A DNA stretch of 36,042 nucleotides, from contig JAISYS010000003.1 of NCBI GenBank assembly GCA_031269735.1, forward strand, positions 1 to 36,042. The letters are read 5' to 3'. This stretch comes from Candidatus Endomicrobiellum cubanum (lineage in GTDB: Bacteria > Elusimicrobiota > Endomicrobiia > Endomicrobiales > Endomicrobiaceae). The position numbers and the translations under genes are program-made. Below are positions 3,487 through 15,908 of the stretch, one piece after another. Position 1 is the stretch's first letter, and each line of letters opens with the position of its first letter. Under the pieces are notes generated by a model. It searched no databases. It was not told where the DNA came from and saw only the letters and a list, made by a program, of their open reading frames with translations.

Positions 3487-4155
3487 GTGGAGCAAAATGT
3501 ATTAGAAAAAATCAAAAAAACAACAAGGTACATCCTTTCTTTAAAAGGTCTTAAGCCGACAATTGCTATTGTTGCAGGTTCTGGTCTTAGCAATATGGAG
3601 AAGGGTTTTACGATCCTAAAGAAAATACAGTATTCAAAAATACCTCATTTCTCAAAAGTAACAGTCCAGGGACATAAAGGAGAGCTTCTTTTATGTTCCT
3701 ATAAAAACAATAACATTTTAATATTCAATGGTAGATTTCACTACTATGAAGGTTTTTCTCCAAAAGAGGTTGTTTATCCTATAAGGGTTATGAGTTTTTA
3801 TACCTAAAAACTCTTGTAATAACAGCAGCCGTTGGGGCAATAAATAAAAAATATTCAGTAGGTGATATCGTTTTAATAAAAGATCATCTTAATTTTAGTG
3901 GGTGCAATCCTCTAATAGGCGTGCATTTAGAAGATTTTGGTAAAATGAAGTAAGGGCCTTTCAAAAACTCGGTGCAGACGTTGTTGGAATGTCTGTAGTG
4001 TATGAGGCAATAGTTGCTAGCCAAATGAAGATAAATGTTTTAGGATTGCCTACTCAACAAAGTTTAATGGTAAGGCTTTAACTCATGAAGAAGTACTAAA
4101 GAATGGCAAAAAGGTAAGTGATAAAATCTCAAAAATCATAAAGAAGGTTATATAA
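3487..4155 (+). pseudogene. Purine nucleoside phosphorylase, broken
   Basis: A functional ancestor would split purine nucleosides with phosphate into base and ribose-1-phosphate. A GTG at 3487 behind GGGAGA opens a 106-residue frame with the family's phosphate loop VAGSGLSNME and the segments VQGHKGELLL and GRFHYYEGFSPKEVVYP; it stops early at 3807. Homology continues in another frame (TLVITAAVGAINKKYSVGDIV, then DHLNFSGCNPL), passes a stop near 3950, then resumes as GADVVGMSVVYEAIVA and ends near 4155 as KKVSDKISKIIKKVI. Part of the conserved C-terminal region is missing before the last segment. At least three lesions make activity implausible. It is the high-molecular-mass (PunA/DeoD-II-like) type rather than the hexameric DeoD type. 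A possible extended -10 (TGATAAAAT, 3453-3461) remains upstream. Confidence 0.85.
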
Positions 4156-5507
4156 ATGAGAGCTTACGATATAATATATAAAAAAAGACAAAACCAAGAG
4201 TTATCAAAAGAAGAAATAGACTTTATTGTTGCTTGTTACATGGTGATATTCCAGATTACAAAATGTCTGCATTTTTAATGGCAATTTTTTTTGTTGATAT
4301 GACAGACGAAGAAATTTTTTATTTAACGAATGCCATGATAAATTCCGGAGAGAAATTAGATTTGGCTATGTTAAATATGCCATCTGCTGATAAACATTCA
4401 ACTGGCGGTGTAGGCGATGGGACATCCTTGATAGTTGCTTCTATTTAGGTATATGTGTTCCTATGATGGCAGGACATGGGTTAGGGCATACCGATGGAAC
4501 ACTTGATAAACTAGAGTCTATTCCAGGATTTAGAACAAATATAGATAAAAAAGAATTTTTAAATATATTGGATTTAATTGGTGTTTCCATTATCGGGCAA
4601 ACTACAGAAATTGTTCCTGTAGATAAAAAAATATATGCCCTAAGAGACGTTACTGCTACTGTAGAATCTATACCTTTAATATGCTCAAGCATAATGTCTA
4701 AAAAAATTGCCGAAGGAGTAGAAAACCTTGTATTAGATGTTAAAGTAGGCACGGGTTCTTTTATGAAAACTTACGCTAATGCAACAAGACTTTCAGAAAA
4801 GATGATAAATATAGGTAAAAAGTTTAATGTAAATACCTCTGTAGTTATTAGTGATATGGATGCACCTTTAGGCAATTGTACAGGAAATAGTTTGGAAATT
4901 AAGCAGGCAATAGAAATATTGAAGGGAAACTTAAAAAATGACCTATATGAACTTTCAATTTTTTTGTCTGCTCTTATGATCTATAATGTAAAAAAAACAA
5001 TCACTTTGCAAGAAGCAAAAATTCTTGCTCAAAAACAAATAGAAAGCGGAGCAGCTTTAGAAAAATTTAAAAGAATGGTTCAATGTGAGAGCTATAGAAG
5101 ATCCACAACAATTTCTGCCTAAGGCAAAATATAAAATGGAAATAAAGTCTATAGAGGAAGGTTTTATTTCTTCTATGAATTCACAAAAAATCGGTATTGC
5201 AGAAATGCTTTCTGGTGCGGGAAGAGCAAAGAAAGAAGATACTATAGAGTACTCAGCAGGCGTTGTTTTTTATAAAAAAATTAACGAATATGTTAAAAAA
5301 AATGAGATTATTGCTGAGATTTTATACAATAGTCCAAGCCATATAGAAGAGGCTGTTGCTATGATAAACGATTCTTATACAATATCTGAAAATAAAAATA
5401 TTAAAAGGGGTTTCTCTAAAAACCCTAATGTGTATAATTACTGTGAATTTTCTGACAATGGTAAGATAAAAACTTGTGCTTATCACACGATAAGCACAAG
5501 TTTTTAA
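4156..5507 (+). pseudogene. Pyrimidine-nucleoside (thymidine) phosphorylase, broken
   Basis: Homology to thymidine/pyrimidine-nucleoside phosphorylase runs the full length but over several frames. ATG 4156 opens MRAYDIIYKKRQNQELSKEE, frame shifts occur near 4230 (HGDIPDYKMSAFLMAI follows) and near 4445 inside the phosphate-binding region after KHSTGGVGDGTS, and another near 5090, where RAIEDPQ continues in a different frame. The conserved GHGLGHTDGTLDKLESIPG and DVKVGTGSFMK are still readable, so decay is recent. The final open frame ends at 5507 inside repeat DNA: the last ~35 codons encode no family sequence, and the natural end was probably near 5400. It was probably the partner of the upstream purine phosphorylase. 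Confidence 0.88.
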
Positions 5508-13264: not shown

Positions 13265-13318
13265 TAATAAAGAGTCAACTGCTATGGACTTAAGTCCATA
13301 GCAGTTGACTCTTTATTA
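13265..13318 (+). terminator. Perfect 54-bp palindrome, likely terminator of the lysine operon
   Basis: The 27-bp arms (13265-13291 and 13292-13318) are exact reverse complements with no spacer; the centre is GGACTTAAGTCC. The transcript could form a very stable hairpin between dapL and the rpsO promoter and could stop transcription from either side. The right flank lacks a true T-run, so an intrinsic terminator is not certain. A protein-binding site or element end is possible. Confidence 0.6.
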
Positions 13319-13375: not shown

Positions 13376-13404
13376 TGGACAGAAAAAAAAATATTTGGTA
13401 TAAT
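13376..13404 (+). promoter_or_regulatory. Strong sigma-70 promoter for rpsO-pnp
   Basis: TGGACA (13376-13381) and a perfect TATAAT (13399-13404) are separated by 17 bp, with an A-tract in the spacer. Transcription should begin near 13411, about 55 nt before rpsO. Confidence 0.75.
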
Positions 13405-13465: not shown

Positions 13466-13726
13466 ATGGCATTTGTAAAAAAAGATGTAGTTGAACAGTA
13501 TAAAACACATGAGACAGATACAGGTTCTCCTGAAGTTCAAGTTGCTCTTCTTACAACAAGAATTAAGTATCTTTCTGAACATTTTAAAAAATTTCCTAAA
13601 GATTTTGCTTCAAGAATTGGATTCCTTAAGATGATAGGGCATAGAAGAAGATTGTTAAATTATATTAAAAAGAATAATAAAGAAAGTTATACTACTTTGA
13701 TTAAAAAATTAGATCTTAGAAAGTAA
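13466..13726 (+). CDS. rpsO: 30S ribosomal protein S15
   Basis: S15 binds the central domain of 16S rRNA early in 30S assembly. The 86-residue protein has the family segments HETDTGSPEVQVALLT, FPKDFASRIG and IGHRRRLLNYIKKN. It is slightly shorter than the usual 88-89. AAGAGG precedes the ATG. It forms the widely conserved rpsO-pnp pair, with a strong promoter upstream. Confidence 0.97.
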   Translation: MAFVKKDVVEQYKTHETDTGSPEVQVALLTTRIKYLSEHFKKFPKDFASRIGFLKMIGHRRRLLNYIKKNNKESYTTLIKKLDLRK

Positions 13727-13741
13727 ATTTGTATATTAAAT

Positions 13742-13824
13742 TTAGCACAAACCACAAAGGATGCAAGGAAACGCTTTATGATGGTATAGGCGTTTGCTTG
13801 GATCTTTTGTGTGGTTGGTGTTAG
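13742..13824 (+). promoter_or_regulatory. Long stem-loop in the rpsO-pnp leader, candidate RNase III site
   Basis: Bases 13742-13774 pair with 13790-13824 around a 15-nt loop. The inner part (AAACGC with GCGTTT, then GGATGCAAG with CTTGGATC) is interrupted by two G-G mismatches, and a 2-nt bulge lies farther out; the outer part pairs CACAAACC with GGTTGGTG with one mismatch. The whole stem is about 30 bp. In E. coli an RNase III-cleaved hairpin at this place lets PNPase repress its own mRNA. Position and shape fit that role; the control itself is inferred. Confidence 0.65.
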
Positions 13825-13838
13825 ATAATGGAGTTAAA

Positions 13839-15908
13839 ATGGAATATTTAAAAAAAGAGATGGACATTGCTGGTAAAAAAATTATTGTTGAGTCTGGCAA
13901 AGTAGCAAAACAAGCAAGTGGATCTTGTACTGTAAGAGTTGGAGATACTATTGTATTAGTTACTGCTGTTGCTGCAAAAGAGCCTAAGCTTGGTGTGGAT
14001 TTTATGCCTTTAACTGTAGACTATAGAGAAAGAACTTATGCTGCTGGTAAAATACCGGGAGGTTTTTTTAAAAGAGAGGCAAAACCAAAAGAAAGTGAAA
14101 TTTTAGTAAGTAGACTTATAGATAGAAGTGTTAGACCTCTTTTTAGTGAATATTGGAGAAATGATACTCAAATTTCTGCTATTGTGCTTTCTCATGATGG
14201 GGAGAATGATGCTGATTTGCTTTCCATTATAGGTGCCTCTGTTGCTTTATATACTTCAGATTTGCCTTTTGCTATACCAGTGGCTTCTGCTAGGATAGCT
14301 AAAGTTGATGGAAGGCTTATTATTAATCCAACTATTTCAGAACAAAAACTCAGTGTCTTAGATTTAGTAGTAAGTGGAACTCAAGAAGCTTTAACTATGG
14401 TTGAGGCGGGAGCTCAAGAGATTTCAGAAGAAGAGATGTTAGAAGCTTTAAATCTTGCTAAGGATACAATAAAGGAAATTTGCTTATTTATAAAATCTCT
14501 TCCAAGTAAGGTTAAAACAGAAGTTTCAGAGCCTGTATATAATGTAGATTTAAAGAAAGATATAGAATCCGAAGCAATTTCTAAAGCACAAGAAGCTGTT
14601 ACAATAAAAGAAAAAGGTGAAAGAGACTTTTTTTGGTCGTCGTTTAAAAAAGATATATCTGTAAAAATGATTGAGAAATATCCACAAGAAGACCCATCTA
14701 TAATAAGCGTTATATTGGAAGATGTTTTTTATAAAAAAGCTAGAGAACTTGTCTTAAATAAAAAAGTACGTACTGATGGGCGTGGTTTGGAAGAAATAAG
14801 ACCTATAACTTGTGAAACAAATATTTTACCAAGAGTACATGGTTCTAGTTTGTTTACAAGAGGGCAAACCCAAGCTTTGGTAACTGTAACACTTGGTACT
14901 CCTGGAGACATGCAGATCATGGATGAGCTTGTAGGAGAATATAAAGAGCGTTTTATGTTACATTATAATTTCCCTGGTTTTTCAACGGGAGAGGCTAAAG
15001 GCGAAAGATTTACAAGTAGAAGAGAAATTGGCCATGGTAATTTAGCAAAAAGAGCTTTAAAAGCTATTTTGCCAAGCGAGCAGGATTTTGGTTACACGAT
15101 AAGAGTTGTATCAGACATACTAGAGTCAAATGGTTCTTCTTCAATGGCTTCTGTATGCGGAGGTTCTCTTGCTTTATTTAATGCGGGTGTTCCTGTAAAA
15201 GCTAGTTGTGCTGGTGTTGCTATGGGTCTTATGAAAGAAGGAGATAATTATGTAATTCTTACAGATATTATGGGAATGGAAGATCATTTGGGAGATATGG
15301 ACTTTAAAGTGGCAGGTACGAGAAATGGTATTACTGCTCTTCAAATGGATATAAAAATTTCTGGTCTTACAACAGAAATTATGGCTCAAGCTCTTGCGCA
15401 AGCTAAGAGAGGAAGATTTTTTATATTAGATAAAATGGATGCGGCGATCTCTATACCAAATAATAAACTTTCTAATTATGCTCCCCGTATTGCGACCTTG
15501 TCAATTCCTCAATCTAAAATAGGCGAACTTATAGGTCCTGGTGGGAAAAATATAAGAAAGTTGCAAGAAGAAAACAATGTAAAAATAGATATAGAAGAAA
15601 CTGGTAAAGTTTTTATATCTGGTACTGATACTGGTGTGGATGTGGTAAAAAAGTATGTTGAGTCTATGACTGTTGAAGTCGAAATTGGTAAAATATATAA
15701 AGCAAAAATCACAAAAATTATGGCATTTGGGGCTTTTGCAGAATTTTTGCCTGGTAAAGAAGGGCTCATACATATTTCTCAACTTGCAAGTGGACACACT
15801 AAAAAAGTAGAAGATATTGTTAAAGAAGGAGATGAAGTTAAAGTCAAAGTTACAGAGATAGATAAGCAGGGAAGAATAAATTTGAGTATGAAAGCAGTTA
15901 CTAACTAA
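13839..15908 (+). CDS. pnp: Polyribonucleotide nucleotidyltransferase (PNPase)
   Basis: PNPase degrades RNA 3'-5' by phosphorolysis and takes part in mRNA decay. Domain order: RNase PH 1 (about 1-215), helical linker, RNase PH 2 (about 310-540) with FTRGQTQAL and GDMDFKVAGT, KH domain with GPGGKNI (566-572), and a C-terminal S1 domain (about 617-686) with AFGAFAEFLPGKEGLIHIS. I place the start at ATG 13839 behind GGAG, giving 689 residues. An in-frame start at 13794 would lie inside the right arm of the leader stem-loop and add sequence not found in the family. Confidence 0.96.
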   Translation: MEYLKKEMDIAGKKIIVESGKVAKQASGSCTVRVGDTIVLVTAVAAKEPKLGVDFMPLTVDYRERTYAAGKIPGGFFKREAKPKESEILVSRLIDRSVRPLFSEYWRNDTQISAIVLSHDGENDADLLSIIGASVALYTSDLPFAIPVASARIAKVDGRLIINPTISEQKLSVLDLVVSGTQEALTMVEAGAQEISEEEMLEALNLAKDTIKEICLFIKSLPSKVKTEVSEPVYNVDLKKDIESEAISKAQEAVTIKEKGERDFFWSSFKKDISVKMIEKYPQEDPSIISVILEDVFYKKARELVLNKKVRTDGRGLEEIRPITCETNILPRVHGSSLFTRGQTQALVTVTLGTPGDMQIMDELVGEYKERFMLHYNFPGFSTGEAKGERFTSRREIGHGNLAKRALKAILPSEQDFGYTIRVVSDILESNGSSSMASVCGGSLALFNAGVPVKASCAGVAMGLMKEGDNYVILTDIMGMEDHLGDMDFKVAGTRNGITALQMDIKISGLTTEIMAQALAQAKRGRFFILDKMDAAISIPNNKLSNYAPRIATLSIPQSKIGELIGPGGKNIRKLQEENNVKIDIEETGKVFISGTDTGVDVVKKYVESMTVEVEIGKIYKAKITKIMAFGAFAEFLPGKEGLIHISQLASGHTKKVEDIVKEGDEVKVKVTEIDKQGRINLSMKAVTN

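Follow-up and report, generated by a model that had tools for sequence, protein, structure and literature searches.

Known leaders of pnp

A stem in the pnp leader is cut by RNase III and PNPase then attacks the new duplex 3′ end, the outcome of this joint action being a shorter-lived pnp mRNA (PMC7866481, PMC5371410). Cleavage by RNase III of the hairpin between rpsO and pnp lowers pnp expression in both Escherichia coli and Streptomyces coelicolor (PMC10126417). The Streptomyces hairpin is itself cut by RNase III and loss of rnc raises PNPase activity, 2-4-fold in the S. coelicolor rnc null mutant (PMC10126417). In E. coli, an RNase III site has been reported at 3311286 (PMC5371410). This corresponds to position 387 of the E. 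coli leader used here (L148), where our fold of the stem has its first G.G mismatch. Another element, Actino-pnp (Rfam RF01688), is a conserved structured cis-regulatory candidate restricted to Actinomycetales (PMC2864571). No such element was found described in Elusimicrobiota by literature term searches, which covered sources other than subscription papers and unpublished motif lists.

The rpsO-pnp spacer of an Endomicrobium-like genome

The window analysed here is a stretch of 36,042 nucleotides of Candidatus Endomicrobiellum cubanum (contig JAISYS010000003.1). The host genome, of 1.33 Mb, is that of a termite-gut bacterium and is Endomicrobium-like (Elusimicrobiota) and the nearest named pnp, 88% identical, is from Candidatus Endomicrobiellum. 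The rpsO gene is followed by a spacer of 112 nt and by pnp, which starts with ATG at 13839 and encodes a full-length PNPase carrying both KH and S1 (Pfam). A good sigma-70-like promoter with extended -10 (11 of 12 matches) is observed before rpsO at 13376-13404, and the promoter scan gave nothing comparable or strong directly before pnp.

The spacer RNA folds as one long interrupted stem from 13740 to 13826, with a minimum free energy (MFE) of -42.8 kcal/mol. Dinucleotide shuffles reached -20.3 +/- 2.9 kcal/mol and none of 200 was as low (z -7.7). A sequence-only reading had placed a leader stem-loop with about 30 bp of interrupted pairing at 13742-13824, just upstream of the pnp ribosome site. 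Folding bore this out: both proposed ends lie within 2 nt of those of the stem, the extent of pairing is right in the MFE fold, and 3 nt separate the end of the hairpin from the pnp Shine-Dalgarno. In the window's own MFE fold, pairing in lower P1 is displaced slightly and includes a 2-nt bulge; the parts below are given in the register backed by relatives.

13466-13726, + strand: rpsO (ribosomal protein S15), the operon gene upstream of pnp (ORF; Pfam PF00312, E 3.3e-33)
13740-13826, + strand: complete pnp-leader hairpin, outer helix included (MFE fold; outer helix in relatives)
13753-13811, + strand: conserved core, match of models R1 (74.4 bits) and R2 (covariation)
13753-13762, + strand: P1 5′ arm, CACAAAGGAU (alignment A4, pair counts)
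13763, + strand: G, opposed to 13801 in the conserved purine-purine 1x1 mismatch (48 cores compared)
13764-13767, + strand: P2 5′ arm, CAAG (pair counts)
13768, + strand: G, opposed to 13796 in the second 1x1 mismatch, which is G.G in this window (cores compared)
13769-13774, + strand: P3 5′ arm, AAACGC (covarying pairs)
13775-13789, + strand: apical loop, from a few nt to more than 100 nt among relatives (folded relatives)
13790-13795, + strand: P3 3′ arm, GCGUUU (covarying pairs)
13796, + strand: G, partner in the second mismatch (cores compared)
13797-13800, + strand: P2 3′ arm, CUUG (pair counts)
13801, + strand: G, partner in the conserved mismatch (cores compared)
13802-13811, + strand: P1 3′ arm, AUCUUUUGUG (alignment A4, pair counts)
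13830-13833, + strand: pnp Shine-Dalgarno GGAG, 3 nt past the stem base (sequence)
13839-15908, + strand: pnp, PNPase with two RNase PH cores, KH and S1, the presumed controlled gene (Pfam)

Two other observations were made in the window. An inverted repeat whose 27-bp arms match perfectly and directly abut (13265-13318), single copy in the genome, lies between an aminotransferase gene and the rpsO promoter region. It is possibly a terminator, though a clear T-run on the + strand is absent. At 3487-5507, nucleoside-salvage genes comprise a short phosphorylase-like ORF (3487-3807) and frame-shifted thymidine phosphorylase-like fragments (4233-5507), which suggests that they are broken, as pseudogenes.

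Comparison with the described leaders

The hairpin resembles the E. coli pnp leader in its position between rpsO and pnp and in its long stem with 1x1 G.G mismatches, as folded here. The two systems also share the features associated with autocontrol: a stable rpsO-pnp stem, an encoded RNase III and a KH-S1 PNPase. On the other hand, no sequence similarity was found, the base of the E. coli stem stands farther from pnp and is followed by a second stem-loop, and the internal promoter of E. coli pnp (PMC10126417) has no clear counterpart here. The proposed match to the E. coli RNase III substrate thus holds for place, loosely for form and not for sequence.

The operon position is identical to that of the Streptomyces hairpin. 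Compared by description, the S. coelicolor hairpin differs in being cut at a 4/4 internal loop, where the present stem carries 1x1 mismatches. Like Actino-pnp, which takes its name from pnp, the element is conserved, structured and confined to one group, but the RF01688 model, searched up to E 10, matched neither the window hairpin nor seven diverged Elusimicrobiota loci. No Rfam family matched the hairpin either at gathering level or up to E 10, the weak miRNA and sRNA matches belonging to the perfect palindrome at 13265-13318. Judged by its anatomy, the element would work like a pnp autocontrol leader, and by sequence it is no member of the known ones. It is apparently unrelated to the E. 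coli and Streptomyces hairpins, homology with them not being recognisable.

Conservation and covariation among relatives

The comparison covered about 110 pnp loci. Its sources were 80 named contigs and, overlapping with them, some 65 family genomes, together with upstream regions from 40 further Elusimicrobiota genomes. When each spacer was folded, most of the family displayed a common architecture composed of an outer helix, P1, a mismatch, P2, P3 and an apical part. P1 has 10 bp, with the consensus arms listed above, and P2 3-4 bp. The first mismatch is purine-purine in all 48 distinct cores (GG 41, GA 4, AG 2, AA 1) and a Watson-Crick pair in none of them. P1 is near-invariant, and its adjacent G.U and G-C pairs are kept in 45/48 and 46/48 cores. 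The second 1x1 mismatch, between P2 and P3, is usual in relatives without being universal; hand reading showed U.U and C.C forms among them, sometimes one position nearer.

Of 51 homologous leaders, 48 have the core enclosed by an outer helix of at least 5 bp. Its base lies at a median of 13 nt upstream of the start codon (51 leaders) and its sequence diverges widely, for instance CCGGCA/UGCCGG versus GUCCGUC/GGCGGAC. In alignment A4 (27 core sequences), 91.9% of cells are paired against 85.2% in shuffles, with 41 double changes against 12.4; moving the partner by 1-3 columns brings pairing down to 34-55%. In the 15 more diverse sequences of alignment A6, the proportion paired is 91.7% versus 74.0% in shuffles, with 57 double-change cells versus 19.6 and a score of 0.55 versus 0.21. 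Double changes concern 13 of the 20 pairs and the slid-register control is clean. The aligned sequences were excised around the two conserved arms, which biases them toward structure, but slid controls and shuffles fail to reproduce the signal. The pnp-leader hairpin is a conserved RNA element with strong covariation. The sequence-only reading, which had staked its proposal partly on covariation in relatives and had suggested conservation at pnp, is upheld on both points, as the element covaries and also tracks the pnp start.

Indeed, the core lies 23-35 nt upstream of the pnp start throughout nearly the whole family, whereas its distance to the rpsO stop varies widely. The near-constancy of the first distance and the variability of the second point to pnp, not rpsO, as the regulated gene.

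Several leaders depart from the common form. In L017, L018, L024, L026 and L072, long extra hairpins replace the apical loop, with cores of 137-149 nt and P1-P3 largely intact. In L187, L029, L030 and L031, different hairpins occupy the same place and the conserved motif is absent, hinting at the replacement of one leader hairpin by another.

Distribution within and beyond Elusimicrobiota

R1 and R2, the models used for searching, were derived from the element. In the phylum sample, R1 matches with E <1e-6 were found at the pnp leader in 42 genomes, the hairpin being single copy in the host genome. The R2 search adds families f18, f20 and f23, all three within its training set. Two loci outside both training sets were matched exactly at the pnp leader: L192 (family f17, 32 bits) and L073, the latter being the top match of its own genome. 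The leader is absent from many other families of the phylum, in which rpsO and pnp are separated by about 10 nt.

Outside the phylum, 151 Chloroflexota genomes gave 3 matches with E <0.01, near chance expectation, and single genomes from several other groups gave weak matches only. For Proteobacteria, represented by the E. coli leader, R2 found no match even with filters off. A match in G221 (E 4.7e-5) was rejected as it is not at pnp, lying between dapF-like and dapA-like genes.

From its spread over several families of Elusimicrobiota and the lack of anything convincing in the other groups searched, the element is, as judged by sequence searches, old within the phylum and not recognisably shared with Proteobacteria. 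The initial proposal left a choice between ancient conservation and convergence. The first part stands within Elusimicrobiota and does not extend recognisably to Proteobacteria, since the E. coli leader gave no match. Between phyla, convergence or divergence beyond recognition would fit better.

Presence and loss of rnc

The host genome carries an intact rnc on another contig (TIGR02191, E 1.4e-70), whose product has RNase III and dsRNA-binding Pfam domains. The absence of RNase III, which the initial proposal could not have accommodated, is therefore not the case.

In three genomes of the family survey (G029, G040 and G013), synteny-verified rnc pseudogenes or remnants (L253, L254, L255) lie between fabF and an acyl-CoA dehydrogenase gene; these are reduced, Endomicrobium-like insect-gut symbionts in which RNase III has been lost. 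Two tiny genomes (G023 and G026) gave no rnc match. None of these five genomes has an intact element. Leader fold z values are -1.7 for G029, -0.4 for G040, 0.6 for G013 and -0.4 for G026, and the rpsO-pnp spacer of G023 has only 19 nt. In the G029 leader, P1 arms survive but pairing is mostly disrupted in P2, P3 and the outer helix; in that of G040 the 5′ arm is gone and a 3′-arm-like remnant alone is left. We did not count G017, where the element is kept and rnc is seemingly absent, its whole rnc neighbourhood being missing from the assembly.

These cases make a link between rnc loss and decay or absence of the element suggestive. Yet the element has also been lost from several reduced genomes in which rnc is intact (G005, G006, G010, G014, G035 and G057). 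In the pnp/rpsO tree, G013, G040 and G023/G026 fall inside clades whose other members are also without the element, leaving G029 as the only separate event. Since three of the four rnc losses are thus nested in element-less clades, the association may reflect genome reduction only, which could explain both losses.

Proposed function and alternatives

The hairpin is conserved with compensating changes and always stands just before pnp. By analogy with E. coli and Streptomyces, we consider it probable that RNase III processes the rpsO-pnp read-through transcript at this hairpin, which would limit PNPase and set its level. The computed basis consists of structure, conservation, covariation and strict placement before pnp, together with a genome that encodes RNase III and a KH-S1 PNPase. 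Cleavage, cut position and PNPase feedback are inferred from the two studied systems. The cut made by RNase III in the stem would most likely fall beside the conserved purine-purine mismatch, and the nicked duplex would offer a free 3′ end open to PNPase attack. Loss of the duplex would then expose the pnp mRNA to decay, or reduce its translation, so that PNPase would limit itself.

The same fold and covariation would also fit an RNase III cut that merely separates rpsO from pnp mRNA, or starts decay, with no PNPase feedback. We regard this as rather improbable, given that PNPase action follows the cut in studied systems (PMC10126417, PMC7866481) and that the stem base is fixed beside the pnp Shine-Dalgarno, an arrangement better suited to controlling pnp than to simply separating the two mRNAs. 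No likelier, in our estimation, is that a protein (S15, PNPase via KH/S1, or another) binds the conserved helix and mismatch, thereby occluding the ribosome site next to them. This would account for the near-invariance of P1 and for a purine mismatch that never turns into a pair, and the adjacent G.U and G-C pairs recall the G-U/G-C feature of S15 sites. However, the element tracks pnp and not rpsO, stands downstream of rpsO, and is matched by no Rfam S15 leader family.

Two other readings are far less credible. A stable hairpin between two genes could be an intrinsic terminator or attenuator, but there is no U-run after the stem, on which ground we rejected a terminator identity. Moreover, the terminator scan omits the hairpin, conserved mismatches are a poor fit and no strong promoter stands ahead of pnp itself. 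All this makes termination very improbable. Least probable of all, to the point of being barely tenable, is that the structure is due to chance or is a DNA palindrome, either bound by a protein or left by a mobile element. The - strand does score with R1, because the hairpin is nearly palindromic, but at 46.5 bits it stays 28 bits below the + strand. The conserved G.U pair and purine mismatches are explained by RNA and not by DNA pairing, the sequence is single copy, and the shuffles never folded as well. Judged from the aligned sequences, this reading is already contradicted by covariation with conserved G.U pairs.

Returning to the RNase III processing site, the strong primary-sequence conservation of P1 exceeds what a plain RNase III substrate would need and there may be another binder. 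We tentatively envisage, with the odds against it, that P1 and the purine mismatch form a sequence-specific site and that the element belongs to a distinct class of pnp regulator, of an origin independent of the E. coli and actinobacterial ones. Candidate readers of such a site would be the KH/S1 domains of PNPase, S15, or a phylum-specific preference of RNase III.

Significance

The element appears to be a further pnp-leader hairpin, unrelated in sequence to those described and found at the same operon spot in a phylum without prior description in the sources searched. If the same control has been invented recurrently, limitation of PNPase through RNase III would be strongly favoured. The conserved purine-purine mismatch clearly predicts where the cut would be located, and reduced Endomicrobium genomes with a broken rnc offer natural losses in which this control could be tested.
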